Positions 2,642 through 12,358 of a stretch of 64,000 bases of DNA are shown here, in pieces. Source of the DNA: Fidelibacterota bacterium (GTDB lineage Bacteria > Fidelibacterota > Marinisomatia > Marinisomatales > UBA1611); contig JADHUI010000008.1 in the NCBI GenBank assembly GCA_016784605.1, positions 1 through 64,000 on the forward strand. Reading direction: 5' to 3'. The position numbers were made by a program, and so were the translations under genes. The notes beneath the pieces were generated by a model. The model did no database searches and was not told where the DNA came from. It saw nothing but the letters and a program-made list of their open reading frames with translations. Positions within the stretch are counted from its first letter, which is position 1; each line of letters begins with the position of its first letter.

Positions 2642-3067
2642 TTATGGTAACCAAGTTGATAATTCGTCTGTTGTATGGCATATATTACATCCAGTCGCTA
2701 TTTTTCCTGTCAAATCTGATCCATGGCAAGACCCGCAATCAAGGGCGCCCCGATCATTCAACGCACCACCATGGAAATTATCCGAAATGGGTTGCATCCA
2801 ATCACTCCAAGCAGGATGTCCACTCGGACCGCCATCATGACATTCGTAACAAGACACACCACTGGAGCCACCATAAAAATCATTTAAGACTGGTTCGCCA
2901 TGGCAAGATTGACAACTTTCAATACCTGATTCGGCTATTTTAGCCATGTGAGATTCACTCGATTCTGAAATCAGCCAATCTGTAGGATGCATTTGGGGTT
3001 CAGATATTTCTGTACAGCTGGAAAAAATTGAAATAAAAATCAATAAGAGTGTAAACGTTTTTTTCAT
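2642..3067 (-). CDS. Tetraheme cytochrome c lipoprotein
   Basis: A 141-residue protein with a lipoprotein signal (MKKTFTLLLIFISIFSSC, Cys at about 18) and four CxxCH heme c sites: CQSCH, CYECH, CGSCH and CNICH. Extra histidines (GGPSGH, NFHGG) could give bis-His ligation. It is expected to be anchored to a membrane on the periplasmic or outer face and to pass electrons between the other multiheme cytochromes of this operon. It starts 3 bases after the stop of the 11-heme gene, so the two are surely co-transcribed. No substrate-binding domain is visible. Confidence 0.8.
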   Translation of the reverse strand: MKKTFTLLLIFISIFSSCTEISEPQMHPTDWLISESSESHMAKIAESGIESCQSCHGEPVLNDFYGGSSGVSCYECHDGGPSGHPAWSDWMQPISDNFHGGALNDRGALDCGSCHGSDLTGKIATGCNICHTTDELSTWLP

Positions 3068-3070
3068 ATT

Positions 3071-3907
3071 TTATCCTGGGTGACACCGTGAGCAGGTTGG
3101 GTCGGCGGAAATTTGGTGGCATACTTGACATAAGCCAGGATCGTTGATTGCATCTTGAGCATGCATGCCTCCGCCTGTGATATACTGCCCCGCCCAACTA
3201 GGCAAATTATGATTCATAGGCATGACTTTTGATTGACTATGGCAAGATTTACAAGTTTGAATATTTTCATGACAAGAAGCACATTCCATTAGATTCATTT
3301 TAGCTTCTAAGCCATGAGTGATATAATAATTTCCTGGATGGACGGTAGGCTCAATGGGCGTGAGAGAATGACAAGATTCACACATATCTTCTTGATGACA
3401 TAAATTACAATTTTCTTGTCCGACAACAGTAGAGTTCAATCCGTGAGATTGAACCCATTCGAGAGTATGGTTTTCGGGAATGGCGTTTTCATGACATGAT
3501 TTACAATCAGAAAAATTCCACGTATTGGGGGTATCATCTTTTTCATCGTCTAATAAATTTGTGTGACAAACAAGGCAATCACCTGTTCGACTTAGATGTG
3601 ATTGATGGGCAAAGTCAGGTCCATTTCGTTTTTTTAATAATGGATACGTATCTAATTCATCCACATTTGCATGGCAAAGGCTGCAATCCCCGTCTTCATC
3701 CTCAGACACATCTTCATGGCAAGATTCACATGCATCCATAGAGGGAAGTAATCGCGTATTTAAGGATAAAGATGCATTAACATTTTCATGGCATTCGGTG
3801 CATTCGATTTCTTCATCATTCACATGAAGTTCATGAGGAAACATGATCCAATCTGATTGTTGGGAGAACCCCAAAGATAAAAGCAGGATAAGACTAAAAA
3901 ATCGCAT
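3071..3907 (-). CDS. Periplasmic or secreted 11-heme cytochrome c
   Basis: A 278-residue multiheme cytochrome. I chose the ATG at 3907 (MRFFSLILLLSLGFSQ, Sec signal cleaved after about residue 15) because GAAGGAG precedes it; a GTG at 3925 would put the SD inside the gene. Eleven CxxCH motifs are visible: CTECH, CESCH, CSLCH, CLVCH, CKSCH, CNLCH, CESCH, CASCH, CKSCH, CQVCH and CSRCH. Many single histidines lie between them, as in cytochrome c3/c7-like wires. It overlaps the 3' end of the beta-barrel gene by 14 bases, which suggests translational coupling and supports a porin-cytochrome partnership. Confidence 0.85.
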   Translation of the reverse strand: MRFFSLILLLSLGFSQQSDWIMFPHELHVNDEEIECTECHENVNASLSLNTRLLPSMDACESCHEDVSEDEDGDCSLCHANVDELDTYPLLKKRNGPDFAHQSHLSRTGDCLVCHTNLLDDEKDDTPNTWNFSDCKSCHENAIPENHTLEWVQSHGLNSTVVGQENCNLCHQEDMCESCHSLTPIEPTVHPGNYYITHGLEAKMNLMECASCHENIQTCKSCHSQSKVMPMNHNLPSWAGQYITGGGMHAQDAINDPGLCQVCHQISADPTCSRCHPG

Positions 3908-5105
3908 GGATTGAAACTCCTTCACGATAATCTATTTTAAAATAGGGGTTAGAATAAAATTGAGAGAAAAATCGCAATTGAATGGTTTTAGTCAACGACC
4001 AGTTTAACCATGTAAATAAGGATGAAGAAGTAACGGGTTCTACAATATTTCCATCACTTAATAAATTTAGAGACACAGACCCACCCAAATCTATCTTTGA
4101 GTTTAGAGAATATTTTGACCCAATGGATCCGCCAAACTGTGTTGTTTCTCCATAATTCCCAAATAATAATGTCCCAGAGAATTGATGACTATTGATGGTT
4201 GTGTGGTAATACAGATTGGATGCATCGGAAAATCGAATGGATAATTGATTTAGTATGGTATAATTTGAACTAAAATTTGATTGCAGTCCAAATGTTGCCG
4301 TAGAAGGAAGAGAAATCGATTGAGTCACCCAACTCCAATTTTCAAATCCAGAATATTTCTTTTCTCGATAACCAATAAAGAATCGTCCAACTTTTGTGTT
4401 TTTTGATAATCTTAACCTTAAATAATGTGGACGAGAATTATTTTGATCCCAAACAAATGTTCCATGAAAATTCATGGCGAATAATTGAGTATATCCATTT
4501 AATCCGGAAAAAATGTGTAAGGAATCTTTTTCACTGTTTATCCAAGAAAAGAGAGAAATATTCTTTTTCCAAGAACCTTTAGACCAAGATAAAACACCCT
4601 GAAGCTTTTCCATATAAATTTCTTCAGATAAAAAAGATTCACTTACATAAGATGTATCACTGAAATCAATGACAGATCGAAACCCGCCTAAAACATCAAG
4701 TGTGCCAAAAGTTTTATGTTTATATCTTAGCGATATTCCATCAATCCGCGTTAATAGTGCGGGCGACCAATAGGGGATTCGTCCCAATTGAAATCTGAAA
4801 TGGTCGGTCTTGACTTCAGATATAAATGAGTGAAGTCGAAACGGATTTAAATGTTGATTTGTTTTGGTCCCATATTCGAAGAGAGATGAGATGGAAGCAA
4901 ACCGCCCCAATGATTGCTGATAAGAAAGATTCGCTTGCCAATGAAGGGATTCGCCATCATCTAAAAAACTCATACGGGGATAAACAGTGGATGCAGAAAA
5001 TTGGATATCTGGTGACGTCCCCCTCACCGGAATAATGAAAATCACAAATGAAAGCAAACGAAGGAGGAGTAGGTTCTTGGAATGTTTGATTTCTATGTTT
5101 TTCAT
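3894..5105 (-). CDS. Outer-membrane beta-barrel protein of the cytochrome operon
   Basis: A protein of about 403 residues with an N-terminal hydrophobic export signal (residues about 12-30), then alternating polar/hydrophobic strands with many aromatic residues (FRFQLGRIPYWSP, SLRYKHKTFGTLDVLGGF, HYLRLRLSKNTKVGRFFIGY), ending in phenylalanine, as outer-membrane barrels do. The start is uncertain: 5105 and 5117 are both possible and neither has a strong SD. No named family is recognised. By position, between a rhodanese lipoprotein and multiheme cytochromes, it is the candidate porin sheath of an electron conduit, like the barrels of Ext or MtrB-type systems. That role is inference from context. 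Confidence 0.65.
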   Translation of the reverse strand: MKNIEIKHSKNLLLLRLLSFVIFIIPVRGTSPDIQFSASTVYPRMSFLDDGESLHWQANLSYQQSLGRFASISSLFEYGTKTNQHLNPFRLHSFISEVKTDHFRFQLGRIPYWSPALLTRIDGISLRYKHKTFGTLDVLGGFRSVIDFSDTSYVSESFLSEEIYMEKLQGVLSWSKGSWKKNISLFSWINSEKDSLHIFSGLNGYTQLFAMNFHGTFVWDQNNSRPHYLRLRLSKNTKVGRFFIGYREKKYSGFENWSWVTQSISLPSTATFGLQSNFSSNYTILNQLSIRFSDASNLYYHTTINSHQFSGTLLFGNYGETTQFGGSIGSKYSLNSKIDLGGSVSLNLLSDGNIVEPVTSSSLFTWLNWSLTKTIQLRFFSQFYSNPYFKIDYREGVSIHAIF

Positions 5106-5220
5106 TTTTTTCTGCATCCACTTAATGATATTAAAAAACAACCCATCGCCCAATTCAAAAGGACAAGCAACCTATAGTATGATTTTAGATGATGAGTTGT
5201 TTTCACGATTTATTCTTTAC

Positions 5221-6150
5221 TTAGAAGCCAAAAGGTTTCGGCCATTTATGTCCAGGTAACTCAGACCAATGCATATTATTAAAACCAAACTTAATCGATT
5301 TTACATCATATCCAATGACGGTTAAGTATGCAATAGATGAAGCAGCAGTTTGTCCTGTGTAACAATAGAAAATATTATTACCGGCGGGATCAAATGCAGA
5401 TAAGTTTCCACTCACAGTCAAAGTTCCAGGTGATAATTGGTATGCACCATCAATATGTCCATGACCTAAATAATCTGCTTCACTCCAATAATTCATAATA
5501 TTGTAGGAAGAAGCATCGGTAATCACATCACCCGCAAGAATAAGTAAACCATTACTCCAGGCTTCGATAGCAGCGTCAATTCGTGCATCCAATATTTCTT
5601 CAGCTGTTTCAAATCCTGTGCTCAAGACGGGATAATCGAATGTAGGCAATGCTTCAGAAGCTGTTGTGACTAAATCACCTGCATATTGATCAGAACAATT
5701 AGATGTCCATGAATCTAAACTAACATCATAAACACTCATGCCAAACTTCATAACATAAGCTTCATATCCTTTAAGGCGAAGCAATGTATGTGCGAATGAA
5801 GCTGTTTGACCTGAATAGCATGTAACCAAAATAGGTCCTGTTACATTTTCAGCTTCATCAAACATATTGGATAATGTTACATTAACCGCACCTTCTATGC
5901 CCATGGAAGCAAAATCTGTAGCAGATCTAAGATCAAATACTGTATAAGCAGAATAATCAAATTCAGCATTCAAAGCGCCTGCGGCTAAGATCCAATCACC
6001 CATATTATTAACGTATCCGCCATCCGTTCCTTCTAAATATTCAACTAGGACGTCAAATTCATTAATTTCATCTACGACTTCATCTTCACATCCGGTCAGC
6101 CCGAGAAGGGCAATACCTAAGATGAGAATAAACCATTTGTTACTTTTCAT
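5221..6150 (-). CDS. Lipoprotein with two rhodanese domains
   Basis: A 309-residue lipoprotein. The ATG at 6150 has AAGGAG nine bases upstream and gives MKSNKWFILILGIALLGLTGC, with lipobox LTGC and Cys 21. Two rhodanese (sulfurtransferase) domains follow. The first has a CYSGQTAS active-site loop with Cys about 111, preceded by VFDLRSATDF; the second has CYTGQTAAS with Cys about 263 and SEADYLGHGHIDGAYQLSPG. Both catalytic cysteines are present. Rhodaneses move sulfane sulfur; an exported lipid-anchored pair beside multiheme cytochromes recalls the rhodanese-like lipoprotein encoded in one Geobacter ext cluster. The physiological substrate is not evident. Confidence 0.8.
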   Translation of the reverse strand: MKSNKWFILILGIALLGLTGCEDEVVDEINEFDVLVEYLEGTDGGYVNNMGDWILAAGALNAEFDYSAYTVFDLRSATDFASMGIEGAVNVTLSNMFDEAENVTGPILVTCYSGQTASFAHTLLRLKGYEAYVMKFGMSVYDVSLDSWTSNCSDQYAGDLVTTASEALPTFDYPVLSTGFETAEEILDARIDAAIEAWSNGLLILAGDVITDASSYNIMNYWSEADYLGHGHIDGAYQLSPGTLTVSGNLSAFDPAGNNIFYCYTGQTAASSIAYLTVIGYDVKSIKFGFNNMHWSELPGHKWPKPFGF

Positions 6151-6230: not shown

Positions 6231-7703
6231 TTAACCAGGATGACATGGGTTGCAACCCACTTTTGCGTATGTCCCAAGAACAGATTGATTTGCGCTAATT
6301 TCATTTTCAATCAAATCGACCGTTTTTAAATAAAGTGCTGTGGTATCGGTAGATGAATAATTTGAATAATTTCCTTCTGAATCATATCTCACACCATGGT
6401 TGTGACAATTATCCGAACAAAAATCAGAATCGGTTGTATCTGTTTGACTTGTCCAAAGTTTAATATTGTGAGGGGTTGATACTTCCCAAGTAGGTCGCGC
6501 ATCAAAGTTCGCTAATTCTGGATGTCCCCATTTTGTATAGGAATCAGGTGCAACAGGAATATGTCTTAATACAGCCCATTTTCCGTTTCTGAGTTCATAA
6601 TCATTATTAATTCCAATCTTAAAATCAGGATACTCTAAATAACCGTTTCCACCGGCATTGACATTCGTTTCTCCATCAACAGGGCCATACCCTTCTTTCC
6701 ATTCGCCACCAGAGTGACACGTATTACAATTATTATAAGGTTGAGAGTGGCAGACAAAACAACTAAGACCTTCACCGGAAGTTGGCCAATGTTGCTGGTG
6801 GTATTCATTCGCTTCAGCAACATCGCCGTGACAATAATCACACTGTACTTGTTCTTCATCTTTCAATAAATGATAACGGGATTCATATTCCGATGCGTCT
6901 GCATGAAAATCTTCCACATGGCAATCAAAACATTTTAATCGTTTTAAATAATGAACGTCTGCAATATTCCCAGTTAATTCCCCTTTAAAATCTGTCCCTA
7001 TTCGACTTCCGTGACAAGCCATACAATTATCGGTTTGGTCTGGAATGCGATTAAATTTATGATTATCAATTAAACCACCATGGGCACTATTTGGCCGACT
7101 AATATGACATTGCCCGCAGGTCGTATGGCAACTGGTACATTCTCCGTCGAATCCACTGGTAAGAGATTCTGGACATGCGTCAAAGTCGGTATGTTTACTT
7201 CCGGCTCCCAATTCTCGTTGAGCAATTGTTGTTTTTTCTCCCCAAGCCATCGTATGCATACTGTTTTTATTTGATTCAACGAGTTCGCTATGACAGGGAT
7301 TACAAAATTCTTCAGGATTAGATGATGGGTCTCTTGTAAATCCATGATCTGTTGAGTGAGCTGTTTCTAATTCTGAAGAAGGCTCTACTCCACCATGACA
7401 ATTGATACATCCAATTAATCCATGAACTTGATCTATATCTTTAAAGGAAGTGTTGCCCCCTTTTAATTCAATCAAAACTTTTTCCCAAGGCTCCAACGGA
7501 GTCACTGAGCCTCCTCATCCACCGCCAGAAGGTGCGGTAGCATTTTCTTCTGCAACAAGTTTCTGTAATACACCTTTATTCGTATGGCACCCCTCACATG
7601 TGGCTGGATCACCTAATGGTGTTGATACAATACCTGGATCGCAAGCCGACATAAGGATTAAGAAGCTAGGAATGATGGATAGTTGTGTAAGGTTTTTTAA
7701 CAT
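6231..7703 (-). CDS. Dodecaheme-type cytochrome c lipoprotein with in-frame TGA (possible selenoprotein)
   Basis: Read through one in-frame TGA at 7515-7517, this is a single 490-residue protein. The 5' part (62 codons) supplies the export signal and lipobox (LILMSAC) and one heme site (CEGCH); the 3' part has no signal of its own but carries ten CxxCH sites (CINCH, CNPCH, CTSCH, CGQCH, CMACH, CFDCH, CDYCH, CFVCH, CNTCH, CNPCH) and one CxxxCH (CSDNCH). The TGA sits in a glycine stretch, SGGG-TGA-GGS, same frame on both sides. Either the codon is recoded (selenocysteine is the natural candidate), or the gene is disrupted, or a GTG at 7505 restarts an unexported fragment. TGA is an ordinary stop elsewhere in the window. 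The start codon overlaps the MerR stop by one base. Confidence 0.7.
7488..7512 (-). promoter_or_regulatory. SECIS-like hairpin just after the in-frame TGA
   Basis: On the minus strand the RNA after the UGA can fold two ways: AGGCUC/GAGCCU (6 bp, 13-base loop), or an inner CUCC-GUU-GGAG hairpin whose loop begins 17 bases after the UGA, extended by AGG/CCU across a 5' bulge. The second matches the bacterial SECIS rules as I remember them (apical loop 16-37 bases from UGA, a G among its first two bases). This was judged by eye only. Confidence 0.3.
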
Positions 7704-8161
7704 TATTTTTGAGACATCTTATAATAGGTTTTTAAATGATCAATATTTTCTGATGCTAAATACACATCACATTCCCTGCATTCGGCATCTTGACACGATG
7801 GAGATGTGTCCGCAATCTGCCAACAGACTTTATCGTCAGCTAAATAGGCTGGACAATTTTCTCTCTCTGATTGTGTGCAAGGTTTTATATCCCAACAAGG
7901 GATTAGGGCTAATAAACGACGAATACCTGCTAAATTCAATTTATCTTCAACAATCAATTTTCGAATACACCCAAGCCACTCAAGGTCTTTTTGTGAAAAT
8001 AATCTTCGGCCGGAACGTGTTCGATATGGAATTAATAAACCGACTCTTTCATAAAGTCTAAGCGTTTCAGATGAAACACCAATTTTTCGGGAAGCGAGTC
8101 CAATTGCAAAAACAGGCTCGAAGGGATCGGGCTCAATTGAACGTGAATTGTAGGATAGCAT
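7703..8161 (-). CDS. MerR-family regulator with Cys-rich sensor tail
   Basis: A 152-residue regulator, first gene of the minus-strand operon. Residues about 17-85 form the MerR winged-helix DNA-binding domain (AIGLASRKIGVSSETLRLYERVG, SGRRLFSQKDL; the Y of LRLYE is typical). The C-terminal 65 residues carry nine cysteines in the order CWDIKPC, NCPAY, VCW, SC, CRECDVY. This resembles the 'two-CW' type cysteine domains found in many anaerobe proteins and could bind an Fe-S cluster or metal. A sensor of redox, metal or sulfur state controlling the downstream cytochromes is a reasonable inference. MerR proteins usually bind a dyad between -35 and -10; a strong dyad lies directly upstream. Confidence 0.8.
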   Translation of the reverse strand: MLSYNSRSIEPDPFEPVFAIGLASRKIGVSSETLRLYERVGLLIPYRTRSGRRLFSQKDLEWLGCIRKLIVEDKLNLAGIRRLLALIPCWDIKPCTQSERENCPAYLADDKVCWQIADTSPSCQDAECRECDVYLASENIDHLKTYYKMSQK

Positions 8162-10816: not shown

Positions 10817-12358
10817 TTAAAAATTAAAATGGAGTCGTACAGTTGTTTCGAGATAATCTGAACCGTCGAGCGGTTTTGCCAAATTAAACCCAATCCCCAA
10901 ACCATCGTCAGATTCAGTTCCAATCCCAATACCAACAGCGGAAATAAAGTCATTTTTGCGATCAGATATTTGTTGAATATCCATCATCTTTTCAGAATCG
11001 AAAGCTAACCCAGAATCAAAAAACACTTTAAAAAATAAATCTCTATCTGTGAAGTCAGGCGTCATAATTAATTCCACATTCGTTTGTATCATATGATTTC
11101 CAGATTTTGTTTTATAAGGAAATGCAGATACAGAACCGAGTCCTCCAATACCAAAATTTCGGAATGAATGTAGGCGTCCATTAGAAAAACCTAGGATCGT
11201 TTGATTCCTAAAAACAAGCCCAGGGGAAAATTCCCAATTGAGGCGCGACATAATAAGCATTCTATTTCTTAATTCATCCGTATCTACACCAATCTTTTCA
11301 TCCGGGTATTCGCCATCGCCATCATTTACAATTTGTTCTCCTTGAACCAAAAATGCATACCCCGTTTTAAATGGGTGATGGTTCTTTGATTGAAAGGCAA
11401 GAGTGGCCTTATAAAAACCCACTTTACTTGAAGGTTGGACAAATGGGTTTTCTCTTAAGGCTCGGTTTTTTTCCGCAATACTCCACAAGGAGTAATTTAC
11501 AGGAATTGAATCTTGTTGAACATCAGAAGTATAAGCTTTGAATTTGAGTCGATTAAAATCTAACGCAAATCCTAGCTCCCAACCTTCCTCATCCCATCGA
11601 TCATAAAAATCTTGCCGAGCGAAAAGACTTGCGAGAGTATTCTCTTCTTCTGTTATGCGATATTCGTCATCGGATTTTGCTTCTTTAAACACACTTCCAT
11701 AAAGAATAAAAAAGCGATTTTTGAAAAATGATTTTTCAAAGGTGATTCGTCCAGTAAAATCTTTGAGCGCTGTTCGATAAGCAGCTGAAACGCTTAAACG
11801 AAATGGGGAGTGATCTCCGTGGTCAAAATCTGAATCGAAAAAAGTGAGCCGAGCTCCTTCATTTCTATTATAAATCAAAAAATCTTCTTTTGGATGAATC
11901 CATCCATCTCGTAACCATTCTGATTTATCTCTTAATTCAAAAAATGCATTTTTCCGAGTTTCAGCAGAATCGGTAAATGTTTCCCGATACACTAATCCTT
12001 CATTCAAATTTGCTTCAATAATTTTCCCATTAATAATAGCGCCATTATGGGTTAGTACGGTTCCTCCCACAGCAATAATTTCACCATTTATTACAGCTGT
12101 TGCGCCAATAGTAACATCTCCGCCGATGACAGTAATTTTATTGTCTGTTTGTCCGTAAATAAATAAATCGCCTCCCATAATTCGAATTCGATCATCCACC
12201 ACTTCTGTAGAATCAATTATATAATCGGAGTAAAATTTCATTTCATTGCGAACGAGTTGTGAACTTGATTCTTTTTCCATGGACATTGCCCAAAGATTTC
12301 CTGCAAATAGTATAGAAAAAAACATAGCGTGTCGAATATGATTATTTTGGAATTTCAT
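10817..12358 (-). CDS. Outer-membrane barrel protein with bactofilin-like N-terminus
   Basis: A 513-residue protein with a signal peptide ending near residue 24. Residues about 40-115 contain short beta-helix repeats (IRIMGGDLFIYG, KITVIGGDVTIG, EIIAVGGTVLT) like polymer-forming bactofilin or DUF4097 strands. From about 140 the sequence is barrel-like, with a segment GIGGLGSVSAFPYKTKSGNH resembling the Omp85/surface-antigen C-terminal repeat, and it ends in phenylalanine. This suggests an outer-membrane barrel with a periplasmic beta-helix stub. It sits 4 bases after the DUF4097 gene in the sigma-factor operon. Function unknown. Confidence 0.65.
   Translation of the reverse strand: MKFQNNHIRHAMFFSILFAGNLWAMSMEKESSSQLVRNEMKFYSDYIIDSTEVVDDRIRIMGGDLFIYGQTDNKITVIGGDVTIGATAVINGEIIAVGGTVLTHNGAIINGKIIEANLNEGLVYRETFTDSAETRKNAFFELRDKSEWLRDGWIHPKEDFLIYNRNEGARLTFFDSDFDHGDHSPFRLSVSAAYRTALKDFTGRITFEKSFFKNRFFILYGSVFKEAKSDDEYRITEEENTLASLFARQDFYDRWDEEGWELGFALDFNRLKFKAYTSDVQQDSIPVNYSLWSIAEKNRALRENPFVQPSSKVGFYKATLAFQSKNHHPFKTGYAFLVQGEQIVNDGDGEYPDEKIGVDTDELRNRMLIMSRLNWEFSPGLVFRNQTILGFSNGRLHSFRNFGIGGLGSVSAFPYKTKSGNHMIQTNVELIMTPDFTDRDLFFKVFFDSGLAFDSEKMMDIQQISDRKNDFISAVGIGIGTESDDGLGIGFNLAKPLDGSDYLETTVRLHFNF

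Follow-up and report, generated by a model that had tools for sequence, protein, structure and literature searches.

A predicted selenocysteine-containing 12-heme cytochrome family of Marinimicrobia, encoded in a conserved cluster with a double-rhodanese lipoprotein

The stretch of DNA analyzed here (the window, 64,000 nucleotides, from contig C17 of the 2.17-Mb assembly G000, whose relatives are Marinimicrobia, Candidatus Neomarinimicrobiota) contains a multiheme cytochrome gene broken by an in-frame TGA, which raises the question of whether this codon ends a protein or is read through as selenocysteine (Sec). On the minus strand, positions 7703 to 6231 form a single frame of 490 residues if the UGA is read through, and the sole interruption of this frame is the TGA at positions 7515 to 7517, corresponding to residue 63 in the context PSGGG-U-GGSVTPL. 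Reading of the frame bears out the original prediction that this codon splits a short N-terminal part, comprising a signal peptide, a lipobox (LMSAC), and one CXXCH motif, from a heme-rich body in the same frame. The body carries ten CXXCH motifs and one CX3CH motif (CSDNCH), so the eleven further heme sites originally proposed for it are reached only if the latter is counted. It was also correctly predicted to lack an export signal of its own: starting at the GTG at position 7505, the body alone has no signal peptide. The whole read-through protein has 11 CXXCH motifs and one CX3CH motif, giving 12 heme sites, with the Sec between hemes 1 and 2, and as an exported protein with several CXXCH motifs, it meets the criterion for a multiheme c-type cytochrome. 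The assignment of positions 6231 to 7703 as one gene for a Sec-containing, 12-heme c-type cytochrome lipoprotein rests on this frame reading and on purifying selection 3' of the TGA (see below). The Pfam domain PF14522 matches 44 of the 45 members of the cytochrome family, and the CX3CH motif, which forms heme site 11 (residues 429 to 434), is kept across the whole family.

The gene was found in 12 of 61 relative genomes, and the nine best matches each contain one internal TGA. A profile search identified the cytochrome family in 42 of 245 genomes of the phylum; the homologue scan of genome contigs returned Marinimicrobia only, and no systematic survey was made outside the phylum. After removal of duplicates, TGA is present at one aligned position in 36 distinct genes from 8 families across Candidatus Neomarinimicrobiota, one of which (L112, a fragment at a contig edge) was left out of the tree, leaving 35 in the tree-based tests. 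Conservation of this column goes far beyond what chance would give. One close relative (L008, genome G237) has TGC, encoding Cys, at this position and adjoins two TGA genes (L006 and L089) in the tree. TGA in relatives and Cys in one of them is the pattern that the original prediction had named as support for Sec. It had also named a sense codon other than Cys as grounds for refutation, and such codons do occur, with Thr, Ala, Ser, Asp, His, or Arg at or near the TGA position in ten other rows, where the exact alignment register is loose for L018, L019, and the tandem copies. We did not count these as a refutation because the non-Cys relatives belong to rhodanese-less lineages or are second copies, and their substitutions can be read as loss of function. 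A non-Cys residue in most Sec-less relatives is nonetheless unusual for a selenoprotein, and the fact that most Sec-less rows carry one at the aligned position counts against our best explanation, as does the lack of a second Cys partner near the Sec. The codons 3' of the TGA are under purifying selection, with dN/dS values of 0.03 to 0.11 in ten pairs.

A putative SECIS hairpin, assigned on the basis of covariation, lies on the minus strand at positions 7489 to 7503, formed from a six-pair stem and a GUU loop (7495 to 7497), 17 nt after the UGA, exactly where it had been predicted. In the window species, a single A.C mismatch interrupts the stem, and the sequence could also fold into a longer one. 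From the work on bSECISearch, bacterial SECIS elements are reportedly hairpins situated just 3' of the UGA, with a small loop that has a G within its first two positions; the loop and distance of the GUU hairpin satisfy rules of this type. In an alignment of 30 distinct sequences (36 nt from the UGA, gap-free), the GUU loop is invariant in all 30, the stem positions are paired in 93.3% of cells versus 74.2% in shuffles, and 35 double changes are observed in the stem versus 12.2 in shuffles. Sliding the partner strand by 1 to 3 columns reduces pairing to 49% or less. The stem pair types include GGCUCC/GGAGCC, GGUUCC/GGAACC, GGAGCC/GGCUCC, and GGUACC/GGUACU. The TGA of the divergent L007 is shifted out of the aligned column, and 23 nt downstream there is a hairpin of another sequence, with 8 bp and the loop GGU. 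Most Sec-less copies are without the stem (0 to 3 of 6 pairs), with L019 keeping 5 pairs. The Cys form L008 retains the stem, with G-U pairs, as expected after a recent change from Sec to Cys.

The genome check suggested with the original prediction found all four components of the Sec machinery in G000: adjacent selA and selB genes, a selC tRNA-Sec with the anticodon TCA, and selD. This selD gene (L066, G000:C21:5749-6675) is itself a TGA gene (MSHGSG-U-ACKIGP), and its UGA is followed after 33 nt by a hairpin of 8 bp whose loop, GUU, is that of the cytochrome hairpin. TGA also serves as a normal stop elsewhere in the window, as had been noted, terminating 3 of the 42 open reading frames of at least 200 aa. 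The cytochrome family genes have one internal TGA each, and some of them also end in TGA. The locus thus meets the criteria for a selenoprotein gene, namely, a conserved in-frame UGA with a TGA/Cys pair, a SECIS hairpin, and selABCD, and the selenocysteine reading put forward originally is supported by these features together with the covariation of the hairpin. On this comparative evidence, in the absence of protein or mass-spectrometry data, we consider it close to certain that the locus encodes one exported 12-heme lipoprotein cytochrome, with the UGA at 7515 to 7517 predicted to be decoded as Sec by SelB, tRNA-Sec, and the downstream hairpin.

The main alternative raised originally was that a normal cytochrome gene has been interrupted by a nonsense mutation or by a sequencing or assembly error, through a G-to-T change in a GGA glycine codon. 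The TGA does lie inside a GGG-x-GG run where GGA would suit, and the gene is known from assemblies only. Against this, TGA occupies the same column in the 36 distinct genes, and because it recurs in independent assemblies, an error is excluded; selection also continues past the codon, and the hairpin 3' of it covaries. A nonsense mutation and an oddity confined to one species are likewise excluded, and we can give this alternative hardly any credence. The flanking glycines would also be compatible with a changed genetic code, under which this lineage reads TGA as glycine or tryptophan. Such a change is at odds with the use of TGA to end other window genes, with the pattern of one internal TGA and sometimes a terminal TGA in family genes, with the presence of selC (anticodon TCA) alongside selA, selB, and selD, and with the Cys found in the clearly aligned close relative without TGA, and we exclude it as the least credible reading of all.

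It could also be that two proteins are made, with the TGA terminating a one-heme lipoprotein and the downstream cytochrome being translated independently, and that the two are maintained as a conserved operon pair. The GTG at 7505 would be available as a start, and a two-protein reading was left open in 2007 for GSU2937-2936 of Geobacter, where no SECIS was found (PMC1914089). In the present case, the SECIS is present and covaries, and L008 and other Sec-less relatives encode single continuous proteins through the TGA position. Furthermore, since the body lacks a signal peptide, its hemes could not be attached. The chance that two proteins are made here appears vanishingly small.

The Sec cytochrome gene is embedded in a cluster on the minus strand, the first gene of which encodes a MerR-family regulator (7703 to 8161; PF13411, 1.6e-14) whose stop codon is overlapped by the ATG of the cytochrome. 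The regulator has a conserved Cys-rich C-terminal part, and most of its seven conserved Cys columns (Cys in 30 to 34 of 34 orthologues) are located there; its sequence suggests a sensor of metal, sulfur, or redox state. Following the cytochrome are a double-rhodanese lipoprotein (5221 to 6150; Pfam PF00581, 8e-14) with the active-site loops CYSGQT and CYTGQT, and a predicted outer-membrane β-barrel of 419 aa (3894 to 5153), counted as the third conserved cluster gene, which is inferred to be a barrel from its sequence and from the cluster parallel discussed below and has no match in Pfam or NCBIfam. The neighborhood map then places a periplasmic multiheme cytochrome of 284 aa with 11 CXXCH motifs (3071 to 3925) and a 4-heme lipoprotein cytochrome of 141 aa (2642 to 3067). 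This order, from merR through the Sec cytochrome, double rhodanese, barrel, and 11-heme cytochrome to the 4-heme cytochrome, is kept over several families; in family f30, 8-heme and then 6-heme cytochromes follow the rhodanese instead. We looked for Sec at the rhodanese active sites and found none, and both active-site Cys residues are kept wherever the full gene is readable. Beyond the 4-heme lipoprotein, positions 126 to 2681 of the window encode two proteins (455 and 395 aa) without Pfam matches, unlike the relatives L115 and L120, in which further 4-heme and 17-heme/cytochrome-b genes follow. The rhodanese gene of G054 (L114) is interrupted near 10847 by a single in-frame stop (IN*WAEADW), after which the second domain is intact; the stop is probably an assembly error or a young nonsense change.

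An adjacent rhodanese is present beside every TGA homologue for which flanking sequence is available, counting the incomplete rhodanese gene of L122 and the interrupted one of L114, and is absent beside the Sec-less genes of G042, G037, G049, G222, G225 (one copy), and G127. For G042, G037, G049, G222, and G127, no such rhodanese was found in any part of the assembly, and the same five genomes retain selA or selB despite the absence of both Sec and rhodanese. Because the barrel gene directly follows the cytochrome in G042, G037, and G049, the absence of the rhodanese there is real. The Cys variant, L008, keeps its rhodanese, but cut to 142 aa. The tree requires at least six changes for Sec and at least five for the rhodanese. 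A test of co-loss on independent pairs gave p = 0.125, but with only four informative pairs, it cannot reach significance. When independent losses were simulated with placement by branch length, the observed agreement arose in about 1 to 2 of 100,000 runs, both with all rows and in a stricter test. The latter drops the tandem second copies in G242 to G244, given that in G243 and G244 a rhodanese is in fact present at the locus, next to the copy with Sec; without these three copies, the simulation gave a p value of about 2e-5. Long branches could favor the loss of both features, and the assemblies are incomplete. The tie between Sec and rhodanese that emerges from this comparison appears strong, but it is not conclusive.

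The mechanism that we consider most likely, tentative and somewhat short of probable as it is, has the Sec working with the persulfide of the rhodanese while the hemes carry electrons; it is inferred, and the exchange itself is untested. In this scheme, a flexible, glycine-rich loop between hemes 1 and 2 would carry the Sec, which would cooperate with the rhodanese lipoprotein, whose Cys would bear sulfane sulfur (or selenium) as a persulfide and exchange it with the Sec. Electrons for cleavage or formation of the Se-S bond would be supplied or removed by the heme chain, which the remaining cytochromes of the cluster would connect to the cell. The result would be a periplasmic or cell-surface reductase or oxidase for sulfur (or for selenium or tellurium oxyanions). 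Without the rhodanese, the cytochrome would remain an electron carrier, and the Sec would become dispensable. The substrate has not been identified, and by analogy with the cluster parallel, reduction of selenite, tellurite, or metal would be equally compatible.

Alternatively, the Sec could be real but serve to ligate a heme or a metal, or be the site at which selenite/tellurite or metal is reduced, with the rhodanese merely belonging to the same pathway. The conservation list contains nine invariant non-heme His residues and one near-invariant His for eleven core hemes; hence, there may be one heme without a His ligand, which the substrate or the Sec could then bind. In addition, in the parallel extHIJKL cluster of Geobacter, selenite and tellurite reduction depend on the channel ExtI and were impaired by deletion of extI (PMC5877670). 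Taken alone, this alternative leaves the matching absence of rhodanese and Sec unexplained, and we regard it as unlikely, if still in contention. Structure prediction on eight sequences gave a pLDDT of 29 and was not used, leaving the placement of the Sec relative to the hemes unsupported by a model, and a profile search of solved structures returned one chance-level match only.

Overall, our best explanation joins Sec decoding, a Marinimicrobia family in a conserved cluster, and the inferred rhodanese-linked mechanism, and we hold this combination with high confidence, the mechanism within it remaining as tentative as stated above. A further possibility, about which we have more doubts, is that the Sec cytochrome and the double rhodanese form an obligate pair throughout the phylum, with sulfur or selenium exchanged at the Sec and electrons carried by the heme wire, constituting a cell-surface redox enzyme whose only catalytic cofactors are Sec and heme. 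If so, the same pairing in Geobacter extHIJKL, where the Sec cytochrome is apparently unrelated, would have arisen by convergence or have diverged deeply.

The closest known parallel is ExtKL (GSU2937-2936) of Geobacter, which was put forward in 2007 as a Sec cytochrome, with no SECIS identified (PMC1914089), and which adjoins the rhodanese lipoprotein ExtH and the outer-membrane channel ExtI (PMC5877670, PMC6148476). In both systems, the multiheme c-type cytochrome with the predicted Sec is encoded next to a rhodanese lipoprotein and an outer-membrane channel. The Sec of ExtKL, however, follows five N-terminal hemes, whereas that of the Marinimicrobia cytochrome follows heme 1 of 12, and the search of 2007 found no SECIS (PMC1914089), in contrast to the covarying hairpin described here. 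Membership in the ExtKL family was rejected, as the window protein has no match to NF040886 at E 10 and none of the 45 members matches at E 1; the rhodanese and barrel of the cluster likewise match no Ext NCBIfam model. By these tests, the Marinimicrobia cytochrome parallels ExtKL in context but would not be a member. The new type of redox site envisaged by the original prediction is therefore not without precedent, since ExtKL had already been predicted to be a multiheme cytochrome with Sec, encoded next to a rhodanese (PMC1914089, PMC5877670, PMC6148476), and what stands is that the two belong to different protein families.

ExtM (NF040943), from the same Geobacter cluster, shares the number of 12 hemes and is not described as a selenoprotein (PMC5877670). 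It was rejected because the best score, in some deep paralogues, is 36 bits against a cutoff of 800 bits, and the match is limited to one or two heme segments, with the Sec segment outside. ExtKL, GSU2204, and an octaheme family are included among the cytochrome-related selenoproteins in a 2026 review of the selenoproteome (PMC13188914), and TIGR04315 and NF041027 resemble the present family in being selenoprotein families tied to multiheme cytochromes or their barrels (PMC13188914). Octaheme tetrathionate reductase (TIGR04315) was rejected for lack of a match at E 10, and the GSU2204 family (NF041027) gave no match to the window protein at E 10. MtrCAB/Pcc-type conduits similarly bring together, within a single cluster, a barrel and multiheme cytochromes of the periplasmic and lipoprotein kinds, but no known barrel model matches here, and the Marinimicrobia cluster additionally contains the rhodanese and the Sec cytochrome.

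The window gene founds a selenoprotein family typical of Marinimicrobia and located in a conserved cluster, which apparently has not been described before in this abundant, uncultured marine phylum. No NCBIfam selenoprotein model matches it, and none of the cytochromes in the 2026 list (PMC13188914) corresponds to it. Annotation is likely to split genes of this kind into a truncated gene and an unexportable cytochrome. The joint loss of Sec and rhodanese offers a testable clue to the role of Sec in multiheme cytochromes, including ExtKL of Geobacter. Marinimicrobia have been implicated in polysulfide turnover in oxygen-minimum waters (PMC5688066), and the family may represent a selenium-dependent step in the sulfur cycling of these waters.

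Two groups of family members deserve separate mention. L003 (G018:C66) and L010 (G058:C114) encode protein-identical Sec cytochromes within the same cluster in genomes assigned to different families, suggesting mis-binning or very recent transfer. In the genus g83, L108, L110, and L111 represent a second, divergent Sec paralogue with the rhodanese upstream instead of downstream, and the hairpin of L108 has the loop AGUU.
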